Assembly (NCBI GenBank): GCA_015179125.1
Contig: WHVA01000048.1
Coordinates: 62,001-126,000 of the forward strand
Direction of reading: 5' to 3'
DNA: 64,000 bases
Source: Gautieria morchelliformis
Lineage: Eukaryota > Basidiomycota > Agaricomycetes > Gomphales > Gomphaceae
Within the stretch, counting starts at the first letter, position 1. Each line of letters starts with the position of its first letter. This document shows, one piece after another, positions 31,330-64,000 of the stretch. The notes under the pieces are model-generated. The model saw only the letters and a program-made list of their open reading frames with translations. It had not been told where the DNA came from and ran no database searches. The position numbers and the translations under genes were made by a program.

Positions 31330-34300
31330 CCTCTAGCGTGCTGCGCCCTCGAAGCACGGGACACGAGGGATTGAAATGCCAGTGAGCGGATTCGGCGAGG
31401 GGCACCAGGGTGTGTCCTATAGAACTCGTGAAGTTTGTCTGGAGCGGAGACATCTTGCTCCGGGACCCACGAATTCTCCTCATACCCATGCCCTTCCCAT
31501 TTCACAAGGAATTGGAGTCATCCTCGCACAAACCGGCTGTCCAGGATCCGTTCCACCACATAGTGCTCTTCCCCATCTACAATTTCCAGTGGAGGTGGCG
31601 GACGAGCCTTCCGACCTGGAATTGGGTCCTCAAGAGTAGGGAGTAACTTCACCACGTTGAAGATGGGGTGGAGGCGGGACATGGACATCGGAAGTCGGAG
31701 GCGGTATGCATTCCGTCCAACCCTCCGCATCACCGTGAAGGGCCCAAGGTAGCGGTGGGCAAGCTTCTGTGAAGGGCGTGTGGTGCGGATGTCACTTGCA
31801 TCTAGATACACCTTGTCTCCAACTTGGTACTCCGGGGCAGGAACCCGGCGTTGGTTGTAGTACCTTGCCATGTCATCCTTGGTGTTCGCAAGGGCCGACT
31901 TGGCTTCCGAAAGGGTGGAGTCCATGCGGTCTCGGAACTCATTGACTGTCTCGAGTCGGGACTCTGCCTGGCGTGGCTCGAAGCCCATCCGCAGGTGTCT
32001 TCCAGAGTCAAGCATGAAGGGAGTCTGTTGCATGGCGGAATGTACATGGTTGTTGTATTGGAATTCCGCCAGTGGAAGTAACTCATCCCAGTCTCCTGCC
32101 TCTCATTGACAAAGAGGCGGAGATATTGCTCCAACTCCTGATTGACCCATTCCGTCTGTCCGTCACCCTGCGGATGGTATGCTGTGGTGGTAGCCAGCTT
32201 TATGCCAAGCAGGCGGTAGAGTTCCCGAGTCAGTTCCGCGACAAACTGCAGACCTCAGTCGGAAACGACTTGCTTTGGGAGCCCATGCAACTTCCAGACA
32301 TGCGCAAGGAACAGGCGGGCCGCTCCAAGGGCTGTGATCGTCGTGTGCATCGGAATGAAGTGGGACACCTTGCTTACCGAATCCACGACGTTCATGATCG
32401 TGTCGTAGCCATGAGACTCTGGGAGTTCAACGATGAAGTCGACACTGATGGTGCCCCAGCAGGATTCTGGAATCAGGAGTGGAACAAGTTCTCCGACGGG
32501 CGGATGTCGTTGCACTTTGGTTCGGAGACAAAGGTCACATGTCTTCACATACTGTCCAATGTAGCGGGACATCTGAGGCCACCAGTAATTCTGAGCCACT
32601 AACTCCAGCGTCTTCCACCTGCCAGCATGCCCAGCAACCCGTGTGGCATGGTGCTGGGACACGATGCGGCGGCGGAGGTCTGCCCCACTTGGAACATAGA
32701 CCTTGCCTTTGAAGTGGAGCAGCCCATCATGTTCCAACCATTCCGCTGCCTGTACAGACCGTGAGTGCCCTTTCCGAAGTTACTCCACCACCTTCACCAC
32801 CAACTCCTCCTTCTCTCCATTCCGGTACTGCCTCAGGATGTCCCGGAGCATTTCCGCTTCCGCCCCAACTGCAGTCACTCCTTCGAGGGCGTGGTTTGCA
32901 AAGAGACTTGGGCCGAGTAGTGTCATATCAGCGTTGTCTCCACTTCCGCTTCCATGATCCGCACAGCGGGATAGGGCATCGGGCTTGCCCATGGTGCGGC
33001 CAGGGTGGTGGTGGAGCATGAAGTCGAACCGGGACAGGTGTAGGGACCACCGTGCTTGTCGTTGGTTCAACTTCTTAGACATGCGGAAGTACTCGAGGTT
33101 CTTGTGGTCTGTCCAGATCTCAAATGGGCATAGAGCACCCTCGAGGAAGTGTCGCCACTCCTCCAGCGCTCAGATGATTGCCAGCATCTCCTTGTCGTGG
33201 ATCTCATAGTTCCGCTCGACCAGACTAAGGCTTTTAGAGAAAAAGGCAATCGGATGCCACCCCCCACCATCTTCCGATGACTGTTGCGACAAGACCGCTC
33301 CGGTTGGTGTGTCGGAAGAATCCGCCTCGACTCAATAAGGGCGAGAGTCGTCGGGAAAGATCAGGACCAGGGCAGAAGTGATCAGTTCCTTGAGTTTGTC
33401 AAAGGAGGCCTGTTCCGGCTCTCCCCACCGCCACCCAACCTCCTTCTTGGTGAGGTCAAAGAGGGCACGGGCGTGGCAGGAGAAGTCCTTGATGAACCGC
33501 TGGTAGAAATTGACAAACCCAATGAAGGACTGGACCTCCTTCTTGTTCCGCGGCACAGGCCAATCCGATACACCGGAAACTTTGACCGGGTCCATTTCCA
33601 CCTTTCCCTCCGACACAATCACCCCAAGGTACTCTATCCGCGTCCGCTCAAATTCGCACTTTTCTGGCTTGAGACACAGGTTGTACTCCCGGAGCCGTTC
33701 CAGCACTCTCCGCACGACTTCCTGATGTTCGGACATTGTTTTTGTGAAGATGAGGGTGTCATCGAGGTAGACGCAGACAACCCCTTCTGCTATCATGTCA
33801 CGGAAAATGTCGTTCATCATCGTCGGGAGTGTGGCAGGACTGTTGGTGAGGCCAAAGAACATGACCTGTGGCTCAAAGAGTCCTCGGTTGGTGCGGAATG
33901 CGGCCTTCCACTCGTCTCCCTCCCGGATCCGGACATTATTGAAGCCCCAGCGGACATCCAGCTTAGTGAAGTACCTTGCCCTGCGGAGTTGTGTGATCAG
34001 TTCAGAAATGAGTGGAATGGGGTACCGGTTCTTGATCATGATCGCATTCAAGGCCCGGTAATCCTGCACAAGTCTGAGCGAGCCGTCCTTCTTCTTGATG
34101 AAGAACACCGGAGATGCCATGGGCGACTTGGAGGGGCGGATCCTCCCTGTACGGAGGTTTTCCGCAAGGAATGCATTGAGCTCTACCTGCTCCTTGGGTG
34201 ACAGTTGGTAGACCTTGCAGTTGGTGGGCTTTGACCCAGGCTCCAACTCGATGGCATGGTCCCACAGCTTTCGTGGAGGCAGGGCATCAAATGACTCCTT

Positions 34301-34839
34301 GGCAAAGACATCCTCTAACTCCCGCAGGTACTCCGGAATTTCCACCTCCACTTTATCATGCTTCTTGGAGGCTTCAGCAAGGCGTTGCGAAATGTTTCCG
34401 GTGGCGCGGGTGTGTTCTGCTTCTGGTGGAAGGTTTACGTACAGCAAGCGCTCCCCCTCCGCCAGAGTCTCTTCTGGGCTGAGTCGGATGACGTCTGAGT
34501 CGGAATTGGAATTGGAATTGGAAGTGGGATCCAGTTCAAATTCCACTTCCGAGTCTTCCGCTGCTCCTGGCGCTCCTTCCGCACTTCCGACCAGCATATG
34601 TGACACTTGGCTGGGCATCTACTCATCAGTACCTTCTGAGTCTGCCAATTGATCTCTGGGTTGTGCTCCTGAAGCCAGGTAAACCCGAGGGTGATGTCTT
34701 GCTTCCCCAGGCTGGTGACTGCAAAGGAAGTGCATTCTGTGTGTCTGTCGTAGGGGAGAATTGTGTCTACTATCTCCGTGATGGACCCTGACTCATTGGG
34801 GCTTCCATCCACATTGAACACCGGGATTGCACATTGCAA
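31330..34839 (-). pseudogene. Family-A pol, copy 2
   Basis: Protease-RT linker and RT occupy about 34840-33330, with the YLDD-encoding site near 33766-33777. RNase H lies at about 33330-32960, integrase at 32737-31700 and the chromodomain at about 31560-31400 (YEENSWVPEQDVSAP). Stops: TGA near 33332 (after DDSRPY), TGA near 33174 (in the RNase H), TAA near 32780, and a TGA at 32255 directly after the second catalytic Asp of integrase, the same codon as in copy 1. The protease lies just upstream, around 34880-34930 (VDCGATGQFM). Confidence 0.9.
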
Positions 34840-35180
34840 CTTCCGCGTAGTCAGTCAGTTCTGTTCCACATAGTCCCGGTTCATAAACTGACCAGTGGCC
34901 CCGCAATCGACAAGGGCGGGTCCGGATTTGACTTCCGCCGTATCTGTCGTCTGGATCTCCACCTTAATGACTAGTGACTTGGGGCCCGGGGTGGCAGCAA
35001 CAACATAGCGCTTCGGGAGGCATCTCTCCCAAGGGCGGATGCGAGATGGATGGGGTGTCGGTTTTGGTTTTTGTGTGACTTTATCCGGTGGGTCTGTACG
35101 AAGTGAGGGGTGTGGGGGCTTTTCATTCTCTACTTCAAGACAGGCAAACCGGTTATGTACAGGCAGCGGGGGCACACATC

Positions 35181-36410
35181 TCACCCGCTGCGTGTCACAA
35201 AATCCGACGCATCTTCCACTTCCGATGCGCCATGTTCCGCATTTTCGGAAATTCCTTCCGCAGTGGGCACTCCGCTTATGTCTGCGAGTGCGAGGAACTC
35301 TGGAAGGAGCTCAAGTTTCTCCTCTGTGGTCATAAGCCGGATGTCGAAGGCTTGGGGGCACTCGCGGGCATAGTGGCCTGGTTGTCGGCATCGGAAGCAG
35401 GTGATGGTTCCGTGGCCTTTTCCGCGCATGCGGTTAACATCCATCAGGGCAGGGCCACTCTTAGAGGGAGGGGGGCTAGGGTTCCTAATAGGAGCAGGCG
35501 GAGCAACCATCAGAAATATTTTCCGTGCGGGAATGAATGCACTTCCCGGTTTTGGCACAGGTGGAGTAGGACAAGCGGAACTGCGTGTCATGTTCCGGTT
35601 TGTCTCCACAAAGGCCTCATTTGCTTCCCTGTTTCAGGAAACCCTCCATGCAGCTTGGTACCACCCTTCTGGGTCATCGAAATCCGGAGCTCCATCCCCA
35701 AGCAGCGCAACTTGGTTCTGGAGTGTCAGATCAAGCCCTCGTCGGAATTTGATGACGATCGTCTTGTCGTCGGCATACTCCGCAAGGTTGATGAGCTCCT
35801 GGAAGTGGTCGATGTAGTCATCGACTGGATCCTTGGCCTGGTACCAGCTGGTCCCCTCGAGCTTCATAAGGGCTGTTAGCTGCTCATTTTTTGGGCAGAA
35901 CTGGTAGGAAAATGTTTTCTCGAAGGCGTCCCAGTCCCGGAAGTAGTTCCCCTTGCCCTTTGCTTCATGTCGGATCACCTTGTTTGCAAAACGGACTGCG
36001 CGGTCCGACTTGAAAAAGGACAATGCCCAATGAATCCGAGCCTGGTCATTCGGAAAGAGGTCTCCGACAATTGCGAAGTAGATGCTGCATGTGTTGAAGA
36101 ATGCATGTCCCTTCTCCCGATCTCCGTCAAAGTCTGCCGGAGTTGTGGGTTTGACCTTTGCCAACTTCACAGACATCCTCTCTTCCGCTAGTTCCGCTTT
36201 TCCGAAATCCGGCTCATCCAGCATTGCATTTCCACCACTTTGTGGAATCTCTAACTTAGCCAAAATCGTTTGTAAGGCTGTTTCAATCGAGTCGGTCTTC
36301 ATCCGGTTCCGTGTCAATTCCTCCTCCATATTCCAAAGACGATCATCCAGATCCATGTCAGAAGGAGAAATATGGGACGGGATTTCCGTGGTTGGGAGCT
36401 TGACGTAAGA
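35181..36410 (-). pseudogene. Family-A gag, copy 2
   Basis: A better-preserved gag than copy 1: MDLDDRLWNMEEELTRNRM near 36358, frame open through LAKLEIPQSGGNAMLDE, to a single TGA near 35634 (the CGA of copy 1, RVSRNREA). It then continues to the zinc knuckle CFRCRQPGHYAREC near 35370. One nonsense change is the only break seen in the gag frame. Confidence 0.88.
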
Positions 36411-44817: not shown

Positions 44818-46017
44818 GACGCGTTTGCTGCTTCTCCACCACGTCTTGGCATCCATCCATCCGCCAGCATGACCCAGACCCAGTCACAGACCCTGGAGAC
44901 GCGGACGGTACGTCCCGTTGCCCAGTCCCTAGTGTCTCGTACCGAACGCGACTCACTGCTCCCTGGACTCCACCTGCCCGCCCCTCACGTCCCGCACCGC
45001 CGCCCACGGGCACGAGCTCATGAAGCTCTTGCCAACCTGTCCCCGAGCGGCGGCTTCTTCCCGCACGACCCGCACCCCCACCGCGACGCAAGCTGCCTGT
45101 GGCAGGCGTGTGCCAGGGGTGAGCTCGAGAAGAATAGGCGGGTCCTGCGCGAGCCGTATACCCAATACAATAGTACACCAATCACCAATACACCAGTACA
45201 CAAACTAGTACACCACCAAATCACCCAAACACCGTCACAGCGTTGTTGCGGTGACGTACCTGACAGGCATGCTGCATTGCGAGCGTCAAAGCCATCATGC
45301 ATCACGCCATGCCGCTAATTTGTAGTACCTCCGAGTCCCGGGCCATTCCAGGCCCTGCCTAATAGTGTTGAAGTACAAACGCGGCCGTTGGCGGTAACTA
45401 TTTTAGGTGCCAGACATCTGTTATGTAACTTTAGGTGCGAGCAGTGGTCTGCTAGCCTAGCAAGACTAGCAGCTAGCTGAGACATTAATATGGAAAGACA
45501 AAGGAACAATAACAAGTCATGTTATTGTCGACCGTTTAGTACGATCCTTTGTCTTTCGCTTTGGCTTTCGCTCTTGAATTCAAGTTGTCCTACTAATTCA
45601 GATGAATAAGTATGGTTGTTGTTCCGAGTCAGAGTCTGTAGGTCACTTTACCGCAGTTGTTTGCCACATGCCTTCAGGGTATTCAGTTCTCGTCGGACCC
45701 CACATCTCGCATCTGGATCCTGCATCTCGCAGCGCTAGTCCCGACTCTCTGCGCGAGGCGTACCGGTACGCGCGTAGGTCTTGAAGCACTCAGTGGTTGC
45801 AACTCCGACAGAACTGATCGGGACGAGTACACCCTGTAAGTGGGTGATTACGTGGGATAATTCTGTGTGGCAACCCCCGTGGGAAAAACAACCCGGGTTT
45901 TCTGCTGAATCATCCGCAAAGATGAACTTTGCGAGGGTTGCTACCGAATTCTCGGAATTCTCGGATGCCGCTTATATCATCATACCTCCAGGGCCAAATA
46001 GGTATGGGTCGCGGTTG
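44818..46017. other. Unassigned region with scattered repeats
   Basis: No supported gene. A copy of a roughly 30-bp word (GGTTGCAACTCCGAC...GAACTGATC) at about 45794 is shared with 13071 and, in part, 22468. A short open frame at 45781-46044 lacks support. Confidence 0.35.
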
Positions 46018-46058
46018 CAGTGCTCATCGGGTCTTTCTGAATGACCCGATGAGCACTG
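46018..46058. repeat. Perfect 16-bp stem hairpin
   Basis: CAGTGCTCATCGGGTC (46018-46033) pairs with 46043-46058 around a 9-nt loop, and pairing resumes outside after a small bulge (TTGCAG with CTGCAA). Confidence 0.85.
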
Positions 46059-46261
46059 GTACTGCAATACGTCGGTGTTCTAGCAACCCAACATACGGTA
46101 TGGATGAGGTGGCCGTAATGCCACCGTACCATGTACGGCTGTACACGTATACGGTGCGGCGCCGAGCCCTAGTCTTTCACCGCCTTCTCACTAGGTCAGT
46201 TTGCACTTGGGATGCTCAGACCATGGAATGACACTGGGACGATGCGATATCTTTCTCAGCA

Positions 46262-46545
46262 GCTAAGGGTGGCTGCGGCCTTACCTGACCGACATATCAA
46301 AATTGTTGTGCGTGTGCCATTAACACACTTGTGTCCTCGTTTTCTCCTTCTTCGCTATTAGGTGAGCTATGAAGTGAATTCGCACCTGGTAATACGCTGA
46401 CCGTGAAATGTCCTTCAGTACAGTCTCTCTCTCAGGCTGAGTAGGGCTGCGGCCTTACCTGACCGATGTATCAAACCGTATTGCCGTTAATACACGTATT
46501 CTCCTTTTTTTTCCCTCTTCTTCGCTGCCTCGTGAGCTATAAATA
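46262..46545 (+). repeat. Tandem duplicated promoter-like unit
   Basis: GGCTGCGGCCTTACCTGACC is at about 46269 and 46446. Each copy is followed by ATCAAA, a run of T/C and a GTGAGCTAT motif. The unit spacing is about 177 bp. It lies upstream of the transposase gene start at 46594, so it may be its 5' region. Confidence 0.55.
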
Positions 46546-46593
46546 CAGTCAATATCATTTCCTTTCACGCTACCACACTCAGTGCTCTAGGAC

Positions 46594-49500
46594 ATGTCTG
46601 GTCTCTTCGCTAATGCTTCCTCGTCATATGTGCTGTTTTCTGAGCAATTTTTCAGAACTGTGACTTTCCGAGAAGCTAAGTCTCTGGCGTTACCCACCAT
46701 CTTATCTGCCGATGCTCTCCACAAATGGACATATCTCCTGTCGCTGCCATCTTCCGCCAAATTGTCCACCACAGTCACCATTGACGAGTTCATACCGAAC
46801 TGTGAGGGCAACACTAATGACGAAGCCACAACCAAAGATACTCAAGGAGATAAGAGCCGATACTAGGACAATGACCAACTGTGTAGTGGGTATCCTCAGG
46901 TTATAACTCTACCAACGATAGATATATGGGGACTTGCCTGTGTAGTGGGTATCCTCAGAGATCAAGCTGAGGAAACGCCACCACACGGGCTACAGTCTTA
47001 TAGCGCTGGCAAGGCTTACATAATAGGGGAGACGGAAACTTGTAGAAGGTTACGGAGTGTGACATGTGATGGAGTGTGACAGAAGGTGACGGAATGTGAC
47101 GGAATGTGACGGAAGGTTATGGAAACTGACGGAAGGTAACGGAAACTCATGGAAGGAAATAGAAACTTGTGGAAGGAAATGCGTGAACCCTGACATGAAC
47201 ATCGTTTCTCTACAAGATATTCTACCCGGCCTGGAGCAGGCATCCGCTGGTGGCATCAGTGGTGTTGAACTGGTTATGAATACACCAAGAGGACCAAAGA
47301 CGGTTCAGGTGCATCTCTCAAAAGTGCGTCCCGCTGCCTACTAGTTTTTTTCTTTGTTGTTTTCTGATATGTGTGGGTAGGTACGACTCTATGTTTCAAT
47401 TAACAACCACACACCACATGTGATGTTTGCGCGTGCCCTTGTACATCGTATTACAGAGGCCAAGCTACTTACACCTGCTAACTTCATCAAGTTCGAAAAT
47501 GAGTGGATCACGACTATGGTGTCAGGTTTCTCAACCGCCTCAGGCATGCCCTTGTGGCAACTCGGTACACTAGTTGGAGAACGTTGGCTTTACGATGATG
47601 TTGTCAATGCGATCTCAGAGATGATCTATTGGCAAACCATTGCAGCAGATCCCCTTCGCGAAGCTCATCACTTGGTATTTCCCACCTTATTCTTCGAGGA
47701 TGCAAAGGTACTATACCACCAAAACCCTCGTCTATACAGTAAAAACATCATCGGCATCCGTAACCGACTTGCAACTGCACGCATCCACGGTTTTAGCTTC
47801 GAAATCATTGAACAGGGAGATGTGTCTGCGTATCTATATACATATAGTCGTCCGAGCACTATACAGCACCGGGACTCTATGGGGAAGGCCCCTCACATTG
47901 ATGTACTCCCAGTCATGAATTGGGTTTTGTCAGGCTTAAGGTTTCCTGAAATTATGGCAGTGGTTGTCGAGAGTGGGCCAATGCAGCCTGCCGGCAGTGG
48001 CAGCTGTACCTTGATCGCCCTCAATGCGATTGAACAACGCATGGATGCCACAGTTCCTACCTGGACGCCGGCTCGATCAACAGTGGTTCGTGATCAATGG
48101 ATATATGATTTGATCATGTACCACCTTTGTTCGCAGCATCATGGGGTATGTTTTCCAGTTTGAGACTGAGATCTATTATTTCTCACTAATTTGTTGTAGC
48201 TACCCTCTGAATGGACACGGGCTTGTCGTGTCGACGCCATTTTCACGTTCAGTGACCAGGTCGTGAAGCGCATTGACGCTAAGGCAAGTGTCTCAGCACC
48301 ACTTCTAGTAAGTTCATGTCCGTCTATGTGTTAACTTTCCATAATGAGTATTTCAGCCAGCATTGCACATAAAACCACCACCTATAGCTTTTGTCTCACT
48401 GGATAAACTCCAAGGTCGTGATCCCCAATTAGATGCGATAATAGTACCTTCAGTGAAGCAAGCTAAAATGGAACCTGGTCCAGCAGCTCTCACACTCAAC
48501 TTGCCAGTGGCTCCAGACTCCCCCATTTCTGTAATAGACTTGACAGGCATGCAATCATCGCCAGGATTGCATGAAATGTCAGTTATAGAGGTTTCTGACT
48601 CGGACTCGGATTTGGATTGGAGCCCGGAGACTCGGTCATATGATACTTCAGATAGCGAGAACACATCATGGCTGGTCAAGAAGCACCATCACATGAATGT
48701 ACTTTCACCGCAGACGCCACAGAAACAGTCTTCTTATGTAAAAGTTCAGCTCAATGACAGTCCAATTGACTTAACAGACTCCCCACTGGCCTTTCCTATG
48801 CCCAAATCATCACACTCGAAATCGTTGGCTCTAACCGTTCACTCGCAGCCATATGTCAAAAGGTATGGCTACCCAGTAACTGAAGCGGTCCCATCTGGTG
48901 CCCCACGTATTGGCACAACATATTCCAATCTGCATGAGGCCAAGGTGGAGATTATCCGCTACGAGGAGAAACGAGGATATAAGATACGCATTGGTCAGAG
49001 CAAGAGGATGGAAGGTGATGAGGACGGGCTTCCCAAAAAAATAACGATGCGGTGTCACAGCTATCGGACTCACCAGCCAATGCACAACCCAGCTATTGAC
49101 CTGAGTGACCACCGGCAAGGCAAGACAATCAAAACAGACTGTAAAGCGCACTATAATCTTAACCGTTGTGTTGGCGCAACTGTCTATACTCTGACCTGGG
49201 CCGATTACACACATAACCATAACCATAATTTGGCAGTGGGTGCCTCAGCTCCACGTCCAGCCACAGATGCACAGCGTGCCCTCATACAGACCTATGCCAA
49301 CAACCCATCCTTCTCTGGGCGCCAGATTCAGGCCATCCTTTCACAGTCTTTCCCGAGCATGACCTCAAACCACGTCAAGTATCCAATCTGATCAACGATG
49401 CCTGAGCACAGAGTCGCAATGACATAGATGAACTAGGTGGGGACTTTGCTGCCATTATTCATAGTCTCCAGGAAAAATGTGCAATAGGAGAGGGTTGGCA

Positions 49501-49740
49501 CTATTATTTGAATCTTGACGACATTGGGAAAGTTACAGGGCTCTGGCGGCAGTCGCCTGAACAGGCGACATTGGCACGAAGGTTCTCAGATATCCTTATA
49601 AAGGACAATGCAGCAAACCGTAATCAATATCATTATCCTCTGAACATTGGGATAATTATTGACAATTTTGCCAACTCACACAACATCTGGTACGCGCTTC
49701 AAGATCCGACCGTGACCCCGCTCTACTTCAAGCAGTAGCT
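46594..49740 (+). pseudogene. MULE-type transposase gene with in-frame C48/Ulp1-like protease and FAR1 domain
   Basis: Exons 46594-46800 plus 47201-47323 (split by a solo LTR), 47381-48145, 48200-48307 and 48357-49391 all join in phase 0 over GT-AG introns. The N-terminal part starts MSGLFANASSSYVLF. A C48-like domain lies at about 47570-48100: GERWLYDDVVNAISEMIY, HRDSMG (Asp near 47873) and QPAGSGSC (Cys near 48005). The expected His before the Asp strand is not seen (GDVSAYLY). A Ser/Asp-rich linker carries SUMO-interaction-like VIDLT and IDLTD. A FAR1/WRKY-GCM1-type finger follows (TMRCHSYRTH, TDCKAHYNLNRC, DYTHNHNHN). A frameshift near 49380 and a TGA precede the MULE core (WHYYLNLDDIGKVTGLW, YHYPLNIGIIIDNFANSHN), cut at 49750 by a chromovirus. 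Confidence 0.75.
46801..47195 (-). repeat. Family-B solo LTR (395 bp) inside the transposase gene
   Basis: Starts TGTGAGGGCAACAC and ends AACCCTGACA on the plus strand. Flanks are CGAAC and TGAAC (4 of 5 match). Removing the LTR and one flank restores the reading frame exactly (EFIPN then IVSLQDILPG). Confidence 0.9.
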
Positions 49741-49750
49741 CAAGAACTGC

Positions 49751-50142
49751 TGTGAGGGCAACACTAATGACGAAGCCACAACCAAAGATACTCAAGGAGA
49801 TAAGAGCCGATACTAGGACAATGACCAACTGTGTAGTGGGTATCCTCAGTTTATAACTCTACCAACGATAGATACATGGGGACTTGCCTGTGTAGTGGGT
49901 ATCCTCAGAGATCAAGCTGAGGAAACGCCACCACACGGGCTACAGTCTTATAGCGCTGGCAAGGCTTACATAATAGGGGAGATGGAAACTTGTAGAAGGT
50001 TACGGAAAGTGACGGAAAGTGACATGTGACAGAATGTGACATGTGACAGAAGGTGATGGAAGGTTATGGAAACTGACGGAAGGTGACGAAAACTCATGGA
50101 AGGAAATAGAAACTTGTGGAAGGAAATGCATGAACCCTGACA
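49751..50142 (-). repeat. Family-B 3' LTR
   Basis: Near-identical to 46801-47195 and 55930-56304. The U3 contains a 10-bp unit array (GTGACGGAAK / GTGACATGTG, about 49990-50090). Confidence 0.93.
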
Positions 50143-50188
50143 TCACCCCCCTCTCAATGCTTGTCGTCCCGACAAGCACAGCTGCCAC

Positions 50189-50749
50189 CTAGCCCCCAAC
50201 ATCCACCGAGACATCGTTTCCAAGTATGCCACAGGCGGGACCACCATCTCTCCTGACCCTTCCCTTCCTGGTAACGCAGGTCAATGATGAGCTCAGGGGA
50301 TTGGGGTCCATGGGCAAGTGCGGCCCTCGGAACCTTGCTCGACGTATTCGCTCTCCTGCCATGTTACGGAAACGTCGCCCCACCCAGCCTTCGAAAGTGT
50401 AGGGGGTTCCGCACGGGGGGGTTCCATCGTTGAGGAAGACAGGGTTGCCGATGTAGTACGTGTTCTCTCGTCTGTGTCGGGGTCTGAGGAATGCGAGTGC
50501 AGGGCGAGTGGGCGCCTGACTCTTCGCTGGTGTGAGGTCCTCAGAGCTGACGGACCACTTTGAAGACCATGCGACGTCGAGATTATGGCAGTCAAGCATC
50601 CTTTGTAGCTTGGCTTCACTGGCTGCTCTGGATGATGAGAAGCCGGAGAAGTGCAGGAGGGTGGGATCGACACGTGACATGTTTGGCAGGTCGGAGAGGT
50701 TTTGGGTGAAGCTGGGGAGGGCAACAAGCTCAATGGTGGGCGAGGACAT
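50189..50749 (-). CDS. Extra ORF between pol and 3' LTR of family-B chromovirus (186 aa)
   Basis: An uninterrupted 186-codon frame, MSSPTIELVALPSFTQNL to NDVSVDVGG, lying after the chromodomain and before the polypurine tract. That is the place where some LTR elements carry a third gene. It has no transmembrane-like segment and no signal peptide, so it is not env-like. Motifs include LQRMLDCHNLDVAWSSKW, ENTYYIGNPVFLNDGTPP and a basic RERIRRARFRGPHLP-like stretch. It is intact although pol is broken. I do not recognise a family. It may be a captured host exon or a structural/accessory gene. Confidence 0.55.
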   Translation of the reverse strand: MSSPTIELVALPSFTQNLSDLPNMSRVDPTLLHFSGFSSSRAASEAKLQRMLDCHNLDVAWSSKWSVSSEDLTPAKSQAPTRPALAFLRPRHRRENTYYIGNPVFLNDGTPPCGTPYTFEGWVGRRFRNMAGERIRRARFRGPHLPMDPNPLSSSLTCVTRKGRVRRDGGPACGILGNDVSVDVGG

Positions 50750-50849
50750 GGTTGATGGATGTGGTGGGGTCGATGCAGTAGAAGCGAGCGGTCACAGGTG
50801 GAGAGGGGATATATAGCTTATCGGAATGAATTGGTTAGGCGGAGGCCGA

Positions 50850-53800
50850 TATCGCTTATCTTTGGGGTCCTGGACCCTTGACATTATGAGTAGAAGCCCT
50901 GCCTGCTGTCCAGTCGAAGAGAGTTTGCCTGGAAGGTTCTGTGAAGTTCTGAAATCTCTGGAAAGGGAGGGACATGTATGTGGCTGCTGAGATACGCTGA
51001 GGTGCCTCTGGGTTCTGCCGGTGAAATTCCTTAATGAGTCGCTTTGCCCCAGAGACATCTTTTGCTGGTAGCCAGAGATCGTCAGCAGCTCCATAGCCCT
51101 TCCAGCGCACGAGATACTCCAACCTTCCACGGAACATCCTGCTGTCTAGAATCCTTTCAACTTCATATTCTTCGGCTCCATCCCGTATGACAGGGGGGTG
51201 GTGGAGGGGCATGACGTTCAAGAATTGGGTCATCTTCATATGGCCGAAGCAGGACGACAGAGAACACTGGATGTGTGCGACCAAAGGATGCAGGAAGATT
51301 TAGACCATAGGCATTTCGTGAGACCACCTTATTAACCGTGTAGGGACCTAGCCACTTGTGGTCTAGCTTCTTCATTGGGCGAGTGGTTGTGATGTTTTGT
51401 GCATTGAGCCAGACCTTGTCACCAAGCTTATAAACTGGGGCTGCTTTATGGTGCACGTCATAGAAGCGTGCCATGTCCTCTGCTGCCTTGGACAGGGCTG
51501 AACAAGCTTCTCTCGTGGCCGCTTCCATCCGCGTTGTGAACTCATCCAGGGCCTCGAGTCGAGTTTCCCGGACTGGTTCCAGTCCCAGCCTTGGATGTTG
51601 GCCACTGTCCAACATGAAGGGTGTAGTCTGGGTTGAGGCATGGATTCGGTTGTTATAGGCAAACTCGGCCAAGGATATCCATTCAAACCAATCATCCTGA
51701 TGCTGGTTGATGAATAGTCGAAGGTATTGCTCAATCTCCTGATTAACCCTTTCAGTCTGTCCATCAGTTTGGGGGTGATAAGCAGTAGAGGCAGCGACTT
51801 TGACACCAAGAAGTTTGTTCAGTTCACGCATGAACTGGGAGATGAACTGTGTGCCTCGATCACTGATGATTTCTTCAGGGAGCCCATGAAGTTTCCAAAC
51901 ATGATCACGGAAGAGTCGGGCAACTCCCACCGAAGTTACATCTGAAGTGGTGGGAATGACATGTGCACGCTTTGAGAGGCGATCGACAACAACAAGGAGA
52001 GCATCATAGCCATGACTGGTAGGCAGTTCTACAATCAAGTCAACAGACATAACCTGCCATCTACGGTCTGGGATACGGTTTGGTAGAAGCTTGCCAATGG
52101 GAGAAGCAGGGAAGTTTTTTTTGTCCGGTTGCACAGGTCACAGGCCTTCACGTATTTTGCAATGTAATGTCCCATCCCAGGCCACCAGTAACTCCGAGCA
52201 ACTAGTTCAGTGGTTCTCCAACGACCAGGGTGACCGGTGAGAGGCATGTCATGGTGCGCTTTCACTATGTCATGTCGTAGTTTTGCATCAAGCGGCACGT
52301 ACACTTTGTTGTGATAGAGGACAAGCCCATCCTGTTCAGACCACTCTTCTCCTCGTAAATTGCCAGAGGAGCCCAGTTCTTTGAGAGCCTTGACAACCTT
52401 TTCATCCCGGTCTACACAGTTCCTTACTCGATTGAGGAAAGCATCACCTTCACCTGGGACTAACTGTGCACCAGCCTCTGAGGGATTCGCCTTGATGTGG
52501 AACAAGTCAGGGGTAAGTAAGACTTGATTTTGGTTGTCTTCCTCCCCCCGCTTATGATCCACGCGTCGTGAGAGTGCATCAGGCTTGGCTGAATGACGAC
52601 CAGGACAATGGATCAGCTCAAAATCAAAGCGAGAGAGGTAGAGTGACCAGCGTGCTTGACGACGGTTCAGGTTTTGAGCAGTGCGGAAGTAGGTGAGATT
52701 CTGATGGTCATTGAGAATCTCAATCTTGTGCTTTGTTCCCTCTAAATGTGGCGCCATTCCTCTAATCCCCAATCACAGAAAGAAGCTCCTTGTCATGGAT
52801 GGCATAGTTGCATTCAGCATCATTGAGGCTTTTGGAGACAAACCCCACAGGCCGCCATTTGCCATCATCACATAGCTGGGACAGTACTGCTCCTGTGGCA
52901 TAGGCTGAGGCATCTGTTTCAAGACGGAAATGTTTGTCTTGATCAGGGAGGACAAGGATCGGTGTTGAGGTGATGAGGAGTTTGAGCTTGTCAAAGGACG
53001 CTTGCTCTGGGCCATTTGGATCCCAAGACCATTGGGCATCCTGTTTTGTCAACTGGTTGAGGGGCTTTGCAATGTGTGAGAAGTCTTCCACAAATCTATG
53101 GTAGAAGTTGATGAAACCAAGGAATGATTTGACTTCAGTGACGTTACGTGGTATTGGCCAGTCCGCACCCCTGCAACCTTGACTGGGTCCATGGCACCTG
53201 TCCTTGAGAGAGGATGAGGCCGAGATACTCCACCTCTAGTTGCTCAAATAGGCATTTTTCAGGTTTGAGGTACAGGTTGTTGGCCCGGAGGATTTCAAGG
53301 ACACGTCGTACAATCCTACGATGTTCTTCAAGCGACTCTGTGAAGATGAGAATGTCGTCCATGAACACCACCACAATCCCTTCATCGATGAGACTCTTGA
53401 AGATGTCATTCATCATCGTCTGGAAGGTTGCTGGGCTGTTCGTGAGTCCAAAGAACATGACTAGAGGTTCATACAGGCCCCTATTTGTCCGAAAGGCTGC
53501 CTTCCACTCATCTCCCTCTTTTATGCGTACATTATTATATCCCCAGCGAATGTCAAGCTTTGTGAAGTCTTTAGCCCTTCCAGCAGCAATCTTATTCATG
53601 ATGTCTGGAACAAGGGGCAAAGGATAGGCATTCTTGATTGTTATATCATTGAGCTTTCGGTAGTCTTGCACAAATCTAAGACTGCCATCCTTTTTCTTCA
53701 CAAAGAAGACTGGAGATGCCATAGGTGACTTGGAGGGACGGATACGATGGCTCTTCAGGTTCTCCTCAAGGAAGTTATCCAGTTCCCTTTGCTCAACCGG

Positions 53801-54751
53801 TGACATTGGGTAAACCTTTGTGCTGAAGGGTTGTGCACCTGGAGTGAGCTCAATTGCATGGTCCCAGGGCTTTCGAGGAGGCAGTTGGTCAAATGACTCC
53901 TTAGAAAACACATCCTTGAACTCCTGGTATGGTTTAGGGACAAGGTCCTCGAAGGATCTGACTGGTGCAGACTTGCTGGCCCGTTCAGCAAGCTGTTGGG
54001 AGACAGTCTGGCCTGCGCCAATCATTTCAGGACTCTCATTCACAAAGATGACAAAGGTCCTGTCTCCTTCCTCAAGTAGGGAGCGGGTGTGCTGTATGGG
54101 AACCTCCTCTTGATTTACACTCTCTTCTGGAACAGTTTCGACTGTGGGCCCTCTGACAACAGGTCTGCCCCCACATGACTTGGGACAGCGTGTCATCTTC
54201 ACATCTCCTGTACGCCAGTCAACTTCTGGGTTGTGTTCAACAAGCCATGTGTGACCAAGAATGATGGCAAGTCGTCCAAGGCTCGTGACAGAGAATGTGG
54301 CACGTTCCGTATGATCCCCAAAGGTGCAAATGAGGTCGACTTCTTCCTTGATTGAGCCAGCCTCATTTGGGGTACCATCAATATTGTAGACGGGGATGGC
54401 ACGGGGTAGGGGGCGGGTCCGAAGCCTGTGTTCCCTCACAAACTCCACATCGATGAACATCCCTGTAGCACCACTGTCAAGGAGGGAGTCAATTGCAAGT
54501 GGATGCCCTGTGTCAACGGAGTGGACCTTGAGAGGTACTTTGGTGCATCGGCGGAGGTCAGCAGTACGGACATATAGAGGGACTGGAAGGTTTGCATTAG
54601 CAACTGGAGCGATTGGTTGGGTTTTTGGCATGGCTGGTTTGGTTTCAGTTCGATCAGGCATAGGAGAAGGATGCATCATATCGCCTGTGATCCCTATTGT
54701 ACATGTTTCGAGAACTGAAAACCGATTCGTCGAGCGGGGCATGTCTTTCAC
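50850..54751 (-). pseudogene. Family-B pol: protease, RT, RNase H, integrase, chromodomain
   Basis: Aspartic protease with LLDSGATGMFID near 54480; RT with FVQDYRKLNDITIKNAYPLP and FMDD near 53365. RNase H has FRLETDASAYATGAVLSQL near 52910. The integrase zinc finger is HHDMPLTGHPGRWRTTELVA ... CDLC, followed by the core (VDLIVELPTSHGYDA, IISDRGTQF, NQEIEQYLRLF) at 52060-51690. Unlike family A the SDRG motif is intact. The chromodomain is near 51150-51020 (YEVERILDSRMFRGRLEYL). Frameshifts near 53150, 52765 and about 52110, and one between core and chromodomain near 51170, break it. Confidence 0.92.
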
Positions 54752-54885
54752 CGCTGACTGGCCTAAAAACCCTTTCCTTCCCCTTGGACAGGGGCTTCCA
54801 CCTTCTCTTTGCGTTCCTCTATCGCCGCTGCTACAGATTTAGAGACAATTGCTGCAATGTCTGCCTCTGTGAGGTTTGCACGGAT

Positions 54886-55869
54886 TCATGGCTTGCGAGG
54901 TTCAGGACAGTCTGGTGAAATGTGACCAGGTCTCTTACAGTTGTAGCAGGTTCGTGTTTTGGTGCGGCGGCGAGATGAGTCAATGTCCATAGGTGTCGCG
55001 TTACTGGGTGATGCTGTGGCAACAGGAGCCATAGCAGGAGTGTGGAGTGGTCGGGCAGGAGGAGGGCAATTAGGGACATGAGGTGTCTGTGCCTTCCTGA
55101 CCTCTAACAGATGGCGATGATTGCGGTCAATCTGACAGGCTGCTTCCTTCCAGGCTTTGAGGTTGGATGGAAGAAAGGGCTGGGCGTGGATCTTGTCAAG
55201 GATACCTGCTGGAAGGCCACGAGCATAGGCATCCTCGAGTGCCTCATCATTAAAGCCTGTCCTGCCTGCCAGGATCTCAAATTGAGCCGTGTATTCATCT
55301 GCCGACATTCCTGACGCCATCCTAAGGTCATGCAGCTTAGTGCGAGCCGTTCTGGCACGATCTGGGTCACCAAAGGCCTCCTCCACACGTTTAATAAACC
55401 CCTCCAGAGTGGATATAGAGGAGGTGCCATCAATGACAGCCTGTGTCTCGTTGTGTGCCCATATCTCTGCAGAGCCTCCCGTCATGAAGGAAAGAGCGTA
55501 TAGGATCTTTGTGCGTTCATCTGGGAAGGATGCTGGCTGGACAGCGATGGACAACTTGATAGACCTGATAAACCCTTCAGTCTCTGCACGGTCTCCATTG
55601 AACTTCTCCGGTTCTGCTGCTTTGATAGAGCGAGTAGATGGAGGGACACTGTGAGGTACTGAGGGCGCAAGGGCTTGAGCAGCAGCAACAGCAGCGTTGG
55701 TGGCAGCATTGGCTAAGTGGTCGTGAACGTTAGCAATCTGATTGTGCAGTTCCTGATTCTGCAGTTGAAGTTGCTGCAACTGCTGTGCTTGGCTCGAAAG
55801 GAGGCCTCGAAGAAATGGCCCATGGTCACCCAGGGCGTCCCAGTATGCGTCTGGGAGTTGGTCTGCCAT
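54886..55869 (-). CDS. Family-B gag
   Basis: A 327-codon intact frame from MADQLPDAYWDALGDHG. A glutamine-rich coiled coil (SSQAQQLQQLQLQNQELHNQ) is followed by a retrotransposon-gag domain (EPEKFNGDRAETEGFIRSIK, EEAFGDPDRARTARTKLHDL) and a zinc knuckle CYNCKRPGHISPDC near the end. It stops at TGA 54886; the same frame stays open for about 45 more codons (IRANLTEADIAAIVSKS). In this copy gag could still be made. Confidence 0.9.
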   Translation of the reverse strand: MADQLPDAYWDALGDHGPFLRGLLSSQAQQLQQLQLQNQELHNQIANVHDHLANAATNAAVAAAQALAPSVPHSVPPSTRSIKAAEPEKFNGDRAETEGFIRSIKLSIAVQPASFPDERTKILYALSFMTGGSAEIWAHNETQAVIDGTSSISTLEGFIKRVEEAFGDPDRARTARTKLHDLRMASGMSADEYTAQFEILAGRTGFNDEALEDAYARGLPAGILDKIHAQPFLPSNLKAWKEAACQIDRNHRHLLEVRKAQTPHVPNCPPPARPLHTPAMAPVATASPSNATPMDIDSSRRRTKTRTCYNCKRPGHISPDCPEPRKP

Positions 55870-55929
55870 AGGCTGAGATGAAGGCTAGTTAAGAAAAGTG
55901 TGTGGGGTCGTCCTATGAGCTTGATCTTC

Positions 55930-56304
55930 TGTGAGGGCAACACTAATGACGAAGCCACAACCAAAGATACTCAAGGAGATAAGAGCCGATACTAGGACAA
56001 TGACCAACTGTGTAGTGGGTATCCTCAGTTTATAACTCTACCAATGATAGATACATGGGGACTTGCCTGTGTAGTGGGTATCCTCAGAGATCAAGCTGAG
56101 GAAACGCCACCACATGGGCTACAGTCTTATAGCGCTGGCAAGGCTTACATAATAGGGGAGATGGAAACTTGTAGAAGGTTACGGAAAGTGACAGAATGTG
56201 ACATGTGACAGAAGGTGACGGAAGGTTATGGAAACTGACGGAAGGTGACGGAAACTCATGGAAGGAAATAGAAACTTGTGGAAGGAAACGCGTGAACCCT
56301 GACA
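55930..56304 (-). repeat. Family-B 5' LTR
   Basis: 375 bp; shorter than the other two family-B LTRs because the 10-bp unit array is contracted (about 56190-56260). Confidence 0.93.
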
Positions 56305-59422: not shown

Positions 59423-60696
59423 TGTCAAGATTGGTTTTCAGGCGTTAATATCGTGTATTAGTGAACACAGCGAATGCCCGAATAATTTGTGCGAATAAGT
59501 ATGCCGTTCGGCGAATAGGTGAACCAATGAATGTTCACAAGGTAAGAGGGTTTGCCTAAACGGGGCTCACCCTATCTACAGTCGTAGCGAAATAGCCCGT
59601 GACTCTTGACAATGTAACGTGCAAGGTCTCACGGAAGGGCTGTCTAAGTCTCGACAATCCCTTCGCTGGCGAAGGTGCTCCTTCGGAGCCCTTCGCCAAC
59701 AGCACAGAAAATGGTTCGAAGGCTAAGGTAATGAAGATGAAGTATGAGAACTCACCAGTGATGCCTAAGTCCTCTGCTAGTCGAAGATGGAAATCTCCAA
59801 GAGAAGGCTTAAGACGATGACCACGGCGAGGTCAAAGCTGCACAAGATAAACGACGTATGATAATTGAACTGGGGAATATACATGTGAATGTAAACTACT
59901 TATATCGAATGCTCGTAAGGTATCAGCGAATAGGAAAGAGGCCGTCACAAGTCAGGGTTGGATAGGGGTGCACAGTCATGATACAACATAGATGAAATAA
60001 ACATACAATAGAATGTGAGAAGAGGGAGAACATGAAACGACGGAGAGTAAAGGTGGCGAAGGCACTTATGGACAAAACCATGTCTTGGGACCCGCATACA
60101 TGCTACCCTGCATGGACTCTTGGTCTACTGGGTTGATTCCGCACGACCTATGGAAGGGATGTCCTGCGAACATACTTTGACCATACGAACGCCCAATGGG
60201 GTTGGATTTAAGAAGACGATGGGGTTAATGATGAACCATCATGCCGGGTGAATGGTATCGATCGTATTTGATGGTGTGCCTGCTGGCGAATGATGTGAGC
60301 AGCGAATAGCCGTTCGGCAAAATGCAAGGAAGGGCGAACAGAAGTGACATAGGGGAGGAGAGGTCGAGGTGGAGGGCAAAGCCGAATGAACACTGAGGAG
60401 GAGTAGCGAAAGGGAAAATGGGGATACCAAGGTGCAGGAAATACACAGGTCATGACAACCCAACTATCAGAACACCATCGGAAGAGGGTCGAGCAGAGGA
60501 GGTGGTAGGCCCAGTGATGACTGCCGAGTCAGTCCCAAGACATCGATAATGTGTTTGACGGCGTGGCTATGGTAGTTGGTGTGAACAGCGAGAATTGGTT
60601 GCCGAACATGACAATGGTGATCGGAACGATCACGAAGGTGGGTGAGAAAATAGGAAAACTGAGCTTCTGAGTATGGGAAATAAACGCGTCATGACA
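59423..60696 (+). repeat. Family-C solo LTR (1274 bp) with perfect target duplication
   Basis: TGTCAAGATTGG...GCGTCATGACA, flanked on both sides by GGTCT (59418-59422 and 60697-60701). It is closely related to 39493-40763 and to the start of the copy at 63762. No coding capacity. Confidence 0.92.
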
Positions 60697-62266: not shown

Positions 62267-63761
62267 ATGTCAACTACCATTGTGACAACCAAGAAGTGCA
62301 AAAGTCCATACCTCTCCTACCTCCAATGCCAGTTGGCTCGTCAGACCATGAGATATAATCGCCAGTCCATCAATACTGATATGGATGCAATGCTGTCACT
62401 CATTGATGTGGAGGCCAAACGTCTTAGCATGAAGCATCACCACTCAGTAGCCTGGTTTCAACACCAGTTCTTCCAAGGGGGCTGTGTTGTCCATAATAGA
62501 CGAGCTGTGAGTGTTTTTAATGCTGCAAAACAAATTGATTGCTTCCTGGATGGACACAAGGGCGGTATGACTATATCACACTCAATCTACGTGTTTTCTG
62601 TTATTAACAGCAATTTTAGAGTGTAATGAGGCCGATAAGACATGGTTTCTTGAAATCCAGATGAAACTCAAGGAGTTAAATGGCCTGTCTTTCACAGCCA
62701 AGCTACCCTTAGATATGCAGCAATTCCTGAAGGCAAGGACACTCACATGGCATGAACAGAAGCATACATCTCTTCGTGCTAGCACACAGGCAGTGGTCCA
62801 GGACACCCAACATACCTTGGAGCATGTCGCTAATGAGGTATGTGATACATATTTGACAGGGCCTCCCCCCATTGTCATTAACTTTAGTTTAATCCAAATT
62901 TGATAGCTCACCGCATTTATGGCCTGTACCAATATGCAGACCGTGTTATTTGCTGTGAAGGGAAAACCTGAACACACAATGGACAGATTCTGTGTGGCTT
63001 CAGAGAAAGGCCACCACTATATGCTCCTTGGGATGAAGAAGCCTACTTCAGATCTTGTTAAGGAATTTGAGGCTTATGTGCTTGGTGATGTGCAAGGTAT
63101 TTTGTTTTATTTTAATTCTTTTTGGCATACTGATAATAATATCGGTACAAGGGCTCCTCTTGAACCACAATTCTCGCCTGGTGGATGTAAAGGGTAAAAT
63201 CCGAGGGCTTATTCGCAATGGACTAGGTAAGTACACATACTCTCACACTATCTTTGTTCTACAAGCACATTACAGCAAGTATAACAGGTGATCAAAATGC
63301 CACGATGCAATTTGAGCAATATGAGAAGCTTATCATTGTTGGGTGAGGGGTTGAACTCCTTAATTGGCCCGAAGGTATCCCCTTTGTCACGTCATCCAAG
63401 ATCGGCTCATTGCACGACCTCCGCCGCCTCCACAATGCTCTAACAGATGAAGATGGGGACAAGCGTTGCCGCTGGGTAACCCTATCCGAAGCTGACTGGG
63501 AAACTCGCAAGGCTACTTATTTCGAAGCTGCTGACAAGGCTCCACAGAAAAGATGGAAGCGAAAGGTCCAGGCACAGTCGGAATCTGATGAGAGCTCAAG
63601 TATGGATGAAGAATGGGGTGATGAGACTGATCCAAAGAGACAATGCACATCTGATGGAGGCGATAAAGGGAATATGGATAGCGCTGCTGCCAAAGAGAAT
63701 GAAGCAATGACTGCCAAAGCAAAGAAGGGGTCCGTTGCTGCCAAAGTGAAGAAGACGACAG
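62267..63761 (+). CDS. Multi-exon hypothetical gene, 3' end cut by an LTR
   Basis: Starts MSTTIVTTKKCKSPYLS. Exon pieces are joined by short introns near 62567-62610, 62839-62908, about 63098-63150 and 63226-63290. Typical segments are WFQHQFFQGGCVVHNRRAV, LNGLSFTAKLPLDMQQFLK and MQTVLFAVKGKPEHTMDRF. A block follows of the form QFEQYEKLIIVG, LNWPEGIPFVTSSKIGSLHD and DKRCRWVTLSEADWETRK, which I know only as a recurrent basidiomycete hypothetical, often transposon-associated. One in-frame TGA near 63342 is not explained by an intron. The Lys/Ala-rich tail is interrupted at 63762. Confidence 0.5.
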
Positions 63762-64000
63762 TGTCAAGATTGGGTTTTAGGCATTAATATCGTGTATTAG
63801 TGAACACAGCGAATGCCCGAATAACTTGTGCGAATAAGTATGCCGTTAGGCGAATAGGTGAACCAATGAGGGTTCACAAGATAAGAGGGTTTGCCTAACC
63901 GGGGCTCACCCTATCTACAGTTGTAGCGAAATAGCTTGCAGCACTTGACGACGTAACGTGCAAGATATCGCGGAAGGGCTGTCTAAGTTTCGACGGTCCC
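63762..64000 (+). repeat. Family-C LTR, 5' part, continues beyond window
   Basis: TGTCAAGATTGGG starts at 63762 inside the preceding gene. It is nearly identical to the first 240 bp of 59423-60696. Whether it is a solo LTR or heads a full element cannot be told. Confidence 0.85.

Follow-up and report, generated by a model that had tools for sequence, protein, structure and literature searches.

A putative C48/Ulp1-like protease joined to a FAR1-type Mutator-like transposase in Gautieria morchelliformis and other Agaricomycetes

Mutator-like transposable elements (MULEs) bearing Ulp1 domains are known from plants, hydra and lancelet, and related domains occur in Ginger1 elements and oomycete Cryptons (PMC2528002, PMC2836005, PMC3212892, PMC13317346, PMC6117577; these and the sources below are cited from the available parts of their text). 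Here we describe a MULE of Agaricomycete fungi, one copy of which lies in a 64,000-nucleotide stretch of the Gautieria morchelliformis genome (GenBank assembly GCA_015179125.1, contig WHVA01000048.1, positions 62,001 to 126,000 of the forward strand), hereafter the window, in which positions are counted from the first letter. The predicted protein of this element contains, in order, a C48/Ulp1-like domain, a linker, a FAR1-type finger, a MULE DDE core and a SWIM-like finger. Ulp1-bearing MULEs are already known; the predicted single-chain C48-FAR1-MULE arrangement in fungi is new. No fungal C48-MULE fusion was found in the literature searched, which left most subscription papers outside its reach, and a 2025 paper on TET/JBP-encoding fungal transposons has, in its available part, no mention of ulp, c48, protease, peptidase, mutator or mule (PMC12730594).

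KI-MULE/Kaonashi (KIU) of Arabidopsis and the ULP1-bearing MULEs of melon, rice and grapevine are likewise MULEs with a C48/ULP domain. KI-MULEs are non-TIR (terminal inverted repeat) elements whose ULP domain runs opposite to mudrA (PMC2528002), and other plant MULEs contain ULP-like regions in either orientation, whereas the fungal element is a TIR element with a FAR1-type finger, has the domain N-terminal in the transposase and consists of one gene in one orientation, which sets it apart from KI-MULEs. In Ginger1 the Ulp1 domain is likewise part of the transposase protein (PMC2836005), but that transposase is Gypsy-integrase-like and its Ulp1 or OTU domain C-terminal, unlike the MULE core and N-terminal C48 domain found here. 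Hydra and lancelet Mutator elements also encode a Ulp1 domain (PMC2836005), and an animal single-gene fusion of Ulp1 and MULE core may already be known. The oomycete elements CryptonF and CryptonS are, like the fungal element, DNA transposons with a C48 peptidase; however, Cryptons are tyrosine recombinase elements, and the CryptonS peptidase is on an additional protein (PMC3212892). Plant FAR1-related proteins (FAR1 finger, MULE core, SWIM) have the FAR1 and MULE parts in common with the fungal element, but the three FAR1-type proteins found in our homologue search (P0051-P0053) contain neither a C48 profile match at E 1e-3 nor a VIDL[TSC] word. SENP1/SENP2 and Ulp1 (peptidase family C48) share a profile match and the His-Asp-Gln-Cys site with the element's domain, which is, in contrast to them, too divergent for the Pfam C48 model and fused to a transposase.

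The whole element and its gene

In the genome compared (122 Mb in 1,113 contigs, the window contig being labelled C537), the complete element is about 5.75 kb long, with near-identical terminal inverted repeats of about 40 bp and one gene encoding a predicted protein of about 1,300 residues. These repeats were present in all five copies read at both ends (5750, 5752, 5747, 5722 and 6487 bp). Perfect 9-bp target duplications flank C91 and C194, and C242 has one that matches at 8/9 positions; neither C219 nor C856 has a duplication of its own. The original prediction, made from the window alone, had proposed looking for terminal inverted repeats and 8-11-bp duplications, and both are present among the copies read at both ends. 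The first 20 bp of the repeat gave 45 genome matches (19 forward, 26 reverse) at up to two mismatches, and the reversed-pattern control gave 0.

The C91 gene model has eight exons (32636-32965, 33023-33787, 33842-33961, 34023-34103, 34153-36033, 36083-36253, 36308-36370 and from 36420) and seven introns, all phase 0, with no stop before the end of the SWIM-like finger; exon borders were picked by us using GT-AG and an open frame. A single in-frame stop directly follows the SWIM-like motif of C91, at a position that is a stop in none of the seven other readable copies (C194, C219, C856, C242, C892, C381 and C672), C537 and C458 being left out of this count as misaligned there. Among eight long copies checked, stops within aligned coding residues occur in C194, C482, C892, C219, C856 and C242, and C741 has no stop in the 506 of 1213 residues that remain before its contig ends; further stops at residues 1126 and 1137 reflect the alignment crossing introns.

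The element combines a transposase domain, DDE residues, TIRs with 9-bp duplications, and FAR1 and SWIM-like fingers, as expected of a MULE. PF10551 (MULE) matched the C91 protein at 34.8 bits (cut-off 27.6) and 22/27 members of alignment A1 at E<=0.1; the 27 include the window's C48 exon as a sequence by itself. PF03101 (FAR1) matched 22/27 A1 members and neither the C91 protein nor the window exon. Across 54 rows (C91 and 53 homologues), the FAR1 Cys and His columns are kept in 52-53 rows, and D849, D910 and E1019, which we take to be the catalytic DDE residues, in 53, 49 and 48 rows, respectively. The SWIM-like CxC...CxH columns, read by eye, are present in 16/54 rows (37 end before them and one differs), and C91 has no Pfam match to SWIM. 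The FAR1 finger together with SWIM marks one branch of MULEs. We weighed and set aside self-cleavage at an LGGD that is conserved ahead of the MULE core; plant FAR1-type matches have related glycines there.

The C48 exon, whole or in part, was located at 11 loci of the genome including the window, at 82-100% identity. It lies in the same orientation as the FAR1 region at eight of them (C91, C194, C482, C892 at 172 kb, C856, C219, C242 and the window copy, C537); at C458 the FAR1 exon is inverted, at C741 the contig end cuts within the linker, and C159 contains a C48 piece only. More distant C48 relatives (28-34% identity) are present in C235, C772, C670 and C892 at 165 kb, and in C235, C772 and C892 (163-165 kb) C48 and FAR1 lie on one strand. 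C462 contains a FAR1-MULE part whose upstream sequence reads as a Copia-type element, with a C48 scrap of 9.5 bits only. None of the custom profiles matched shuffled loci. The recurrence of the C48 exon in 11 loci and the finding of 50 homologues (besides three FAR1-type matches) are more than chance.

Several further observations concern these copies. A repeat of about 1.24 kb separates C48 from FAR1 in C235 and C772; it occupies 59423-60696 and 63761-63988 of the window and recurs in stretches of C892, C159 and C670 as well. The copies C219:93716-99462 and C856:20428-26149 share two 9-bp flanks, CCAAATAGG to the right of C219 and the left of C856, and GGGCGGGGA to the left of C219 and the right of C856; as these flanks look swapped, a reciprocal exchange between the copies or a misassembly is suggested. 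Facing terminal repeats about 0.6 kb apart at C378:5499-6122 and C322:88766-89418 are possible short non-autonomous derivatives of the element. The other C48-family loci of the genome (L001-L008) gave no match to the element's custom C48 profile; the C48-like frames of L006 (C337) and L008 (C287) may be other elements or cellular genes.

Homologues, protease domain and linker

A search with the FAR1-MULE half, confined to proteins of about 667-2122 residues, returned 53 proteins, which were then aligned across the N-terminal half. They comprise 30 named fungal proteins from 12 genera (Ephemerocybe, Pleurotus, Tricholomella, Ramaria, Mycena, Panaeolus, Agrocybe, Leucocoprinus, Gymnopilus, Jaapia, Gymnopus and Coprinopsis), 20 unnamed proteins mostly of 670-800 residues, and the three FAR1-type matches (two from Carya, one without species shown). 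At least part of the N-terminal region is in the same predicted protein in 29/30 named homologues, P0010 being the one without a C48 part. The single-gene fusion read from the window is thus upheld by both the open phase-0 C91 model and these proteins; the contrary outcome, homologues that always carry the two parts apart, was not observed. The custom C48 profile was matched at E<1e-3 by 29/30 named homologues, 25 of which had helped to build it and four of which (P0004, P0017, P0023 and P0046) had not, and all four site residues are present in 25/30, from 11 Agaricomycete genera (Jaapia, P0046, excluded). Of the unnamed proteins only P0039 matched this profile (1/20); most others begin downstream of where the final pre-linker intron lies, and since such late starts fit single-frame predictions they count neither way. 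Residues 1-460 of C91, used as query, matched none of 7,994 scored candidates at E 1e-3. Alignment A2 as query at E 1e-10 retrieved P0001 alone among 7,991, a result that is uninformative on spread because even the other members of A2 were not returned. P0004, P0017, P0023 and P0046, with an incomplete C48 part, were dropped from A1, from the NT and C48 profiles and from the motif, identity and distance counts; A2 keeps P0004 and leaves out P0017, P0023, P0046, P0011 and P0039. None of these sets includes P0010 or, P0039 apart, any of the unnamed frames, and the 54-row column counts and C48-profile matching use all 53 homologues.

Measured against C91, the C48 part has a median identity of 30%, the linker 19%, the FAR1 part 37% and the MULE core 54%. 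Pairwise distances in C48 and FAR1-MULE co-vary (r 0.90; 27 proteins, 351 pairs; reached in 0/2000 permutations), so the fusion looks old, joined once and inherited as a unit. That the C48 and MULE parts are two neighbouring genes fused by gene predictors would fit the introns lying between them, but we regard this as very improbable, as the introns of the C91 model are all phase 0 with the frame open over the junction, models from different genome records join the parts in 29/30 cases, and the unnamed 1018-aa frame P0039 spans C48 site to MULE core, read as crossing an unspliced intron.

The assignment of the N-terminal domain to C48, proposed in the original prediction, holds at the level of alignment profiles. 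The profile of the 27-sequence alignment matched SENP1 (E 4.6e-6) and SENP2 (2.8e-4) in the PDB, with His, Asp, Gln and Cys in register, and 13 of the 14 matches at E<=10 were SENP or Ulp1 proteins, the odd one being tegument protein ORF52 (0.055), which matched a different part of the profile. His, Asp, Gln and Cys are all present in 27/31 rows (C91 and 30 homologues); of the exceptions, P0004 lacks the Cys, P0017 and P0023 lack the region, and P0046 is not alignable there. When C91 is aligned with all 53 matches, His is present in 29/29, Asp in 30/33, Gln in 29/33 and Cys in 29/30 of the rows that have a letter at that site, and these residues are kept at a median identity to C91 of 30%. A captured fold used for binding or structure, with no enzyme activity, would account for the weak match to known C48 proteins and the missing Pfam match; we consider it quite improbable, since His, Asp, Gln and Cys are among the best-kept columns of the domain. 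The C48 domain probably acts on a ubiquitin-like modifier, and it is rather likely that this modifier is SUMO.

The linker contains short words resembling SUMO-interaction motifs (SIMs), as had been noticed in the window (VIDLT, PIDLTD). We counted 27 instances of the motif [VIL][VI]DL[TSC] in 5,779 linker residues, spread over 18/27 proteins, and none in 27,211 residues outside the linker; for shuffled linkers, in statistics that ignore kinship among the linker sequences, the mean was 0.15 and the highest count 2 (0/1000 shuffles reaching 27). A wider pattern that includes the strict one occurs 33 times against a shuffled mean of 2.18 (0/1000), with one match outside the linker. The flanks of the 27 words differ (two are alike). 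The enrichment of these VIDLT-type, SUMO-interaction-like words in an otherwise poorly conserved linker is new here. PIDLT presumably also fits the PxDLS pattern, so that the VIDL[TSC] words might be CtBP-type PxDLS or another short motif that does not bind SUMO. This appears improbable, given that VIDLT is the SIM core of PIAS1 (with VDLT forming SIM2 and SIM3 of RNF4; PMC3901395, PMC4907222) and that the words here adjoin an Ulp-type domain.

The copy in the window

Window positions 45855-49750 are read as the dead, decayed 5′ part of this MULE. Its features are as follows.

45855..49750, + strand: surviving 5′ part of the MULE copy (5′ boundary common to nine other copies)
45855..45894, + strand: 5′ terminal inverted repeat, ~40 bp (word at both ends, in opposite orientation, in 5/5 fully read copies)
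46594..46800, + strand: exon 1a, 69 codons, N-terminal region (C91 copy identical, 100%, for residues 1-69)
46801..47195, no strand assigned: solo long terminal repeat (LTR) in exon 1 (same family as the Gypsy element at 49751-56304; TGTGAG...CTGACA ends)
47201..47323, + strand: exon 1b, 41 codons
47381..48145, + strand: exon 2, C48/Ulp1-like cysteine protease domain (SENP1/SENP2 profile match, column conservation)
48200..48307, + strand: remnant of exons 3 and 4 (C91 exons 33842-33961 and 34023-34103 compared with the window)
48357..48890, + strand: linker with SVIDLTG, SVIEVSDSDSD and PIDLTDSP (limits approximate)
48891..49250, + strand: FAR1-type zinc finger (PF03101 in A1 members, kept Cys/His columns; limits approximate)
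49251..49738, + strand: first part of the MULE core, with a frameshift and an internal deletion (likeness to nine other copies; limits approximate)
49751..56304, − strand: Gypsy-type LTR retrotransposon ending the MULE copy (LTR pair; reverse transcriptase and integrase read by eye from reverse-strand frames)

The original prediction had begun at 46594, where the ATG of the gene does lie, but the element itself begins at about 45855. Its removal of a solo LTR was correct: the insertion at 46801-47195 is 395 bp long, 94.6% identical to the Gypsy LTR, bordered by a 5-bp duplication with one mismatch (CGAAC/TGAAC), and missing from 9/9 other copies spanning that site. The three introns of the window copy (47324-47380, 48146-48199 and 48308-48356) are all GT-AG and phase 0, as had been proposed, but the single frame claimed to run over them breaks near 49350-49391. 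Likewise, 48200-48307 had been taken for one exon, and comparison with C91 shows exons 3 and 4 merged by a deletion of about 154 bp. One long exon from 48357 onward contains the linker, the FAR1-type finger and the first part of the MULE core. About 80 bp were lost near 49704, judged against other copies, and 49406-49735 retains 90-97% identity to nine other copies, with 86 or more of its 110 residues aligned. In exon 2, Asp, Gln and Cys are kept and Asp replaces the presumed catalytic His. Among the genome's own copies, His is present in 10/11, the window being the sole exception, and Asp, Gln and Cys in 11/11; because the change is confined to the window copy, the lost His is decay, as first supposed.

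The Gypsy element that ends the copy has LTRs at 49751-50142 and 55930-56304 that are 98.4% alike. No 3′ part of the MULE was found in the window sequence from 56300 onward, and only a 5′ terminal-repeat match was present on the window contig among the matches listed (up to two mismatches). The 5-bp flanks of the Gypsy element differ (ACTGC, TCTAC) and MULE sequence borders it on one side only, so its far side was perhaps deleted or recombined.

Possible role of the protease

We favour, with some reserve, the proposal that the fused C48-linker-FAR1-MULE protein acts as a SUMO isopeptidase guided by its linker motifs at element DNA. The joining of such a domain to the transposase by a linker with SUMO-binding-like words suggests that the element edits SUMO marks while moving. 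The N-terminal C48/Ulp-type protease would be the isopeptidase, and the linker motifs would steer it to SUMO-modified proteins at the element's own DNA, where its targets may be silencing factors, repair factors or the transposase itself. The FAR1-type finger presumably binds the terminal repeats, so that the protease would act at the element ends, and SUMO would thereby be stripped at the site of transposition.

Several results weigh against this proposal. The Pfam C48 model matched none of the 27 A1 members taken as single sequences, nor the window exon, nor the C91 protein, so that the absence of a C48 profile match, which would have spoken against the original prediction, applies to the Pfam model and not to the alignment profile. 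The window exons matched no Pfam C48, FAR1 or MULE model, and their domain names therefore rest on the other copies and the homologues. The ten invariant columns of A2 are split evenly between the C48 part, where they include His, Asp and Gln, and the FAR1 part, but A1 and A2 were made mostly from rows picked for a complete site, and the invariance is flattered accordingly. C48 domains can act on other ubiquitin-like proteins. As to the linker, besides the neglect of kinship, the strict motif was picked after VIDLT had been noticed in the window, P0003 and P0005; it is absent from the linker in 9/27 proteins, and a generic SIM pattern showed no enrichment (24 occurrences; shuffled linkers averaged 18.83, and 148/1000 shuffles reached the observed count). 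Among the genome copies, C670 has a C48 part and no FAR1 among the matches listed, and the degraded FAR1-MULE loci C253 and C410 have no C48 match in about 3 kb upstream, nor C648 in 1.5 kb upstream. Finally, all seven long copies checked have a stop or a broken frame and the eighth, C741, is cut by its contig end, so no copy was seen open end to end.

Two other roles would retain an active protease. The protease could take SUMO off heterochromatin factors at the element, as with the Ulp1-domain VANC genes of KIU-carrying Vandals. Such Vandals are reported to cause hypomethylation of related elements (PMC13317346), and the SUMO-binding-like linker of the fungal protein lies between protease and DNA-binding finger; however, the plant gene, one of three in its element, is distinct from the transposase, and what its Ulp1 domain does is described as unknown in the available part of that source (PMC13317346). 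We judge anti-silencing of this kind somewhat unlikely. Unlikely, too, is a protease that guards the transposase, stripping its own SUMO or SUMO chains and blocking SUMO-targeted ubiquitin ligases, with host silencing not its target: a single, jointly inherited chain holds both protease and transposase, and the linker words are similar to the motifs of PIAS1 and RNF4, but a separate protease in trans would serve equally.

SUMO removal at the element's own DNA, the reading we favour, would imply a lineage of mushroom transposons with its own SUMO-removal machine (protease, SUMO-reading linker, repeat-binding finger and nuclease on one chain), used at its own chromatin during transposition, a picture that we hold tentatively, at a little short of an even chance. 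None of the 53 homologue records lists a C48 domain and 0/27 members match the Pfam model, and thus Pfam-based annotation overlooks this branch of C48. The precise function of the Ulp1 domain in plant MULEs was called unknown in the available part of a 2026 review (PMC13317346). With its single chain, a site that persists at about 30% identity and SUMO-binding-like words in the linker, the fungal form links the putative protease to the transposition complex, and the question becomes testable in yeast or laboratory mushrooms.

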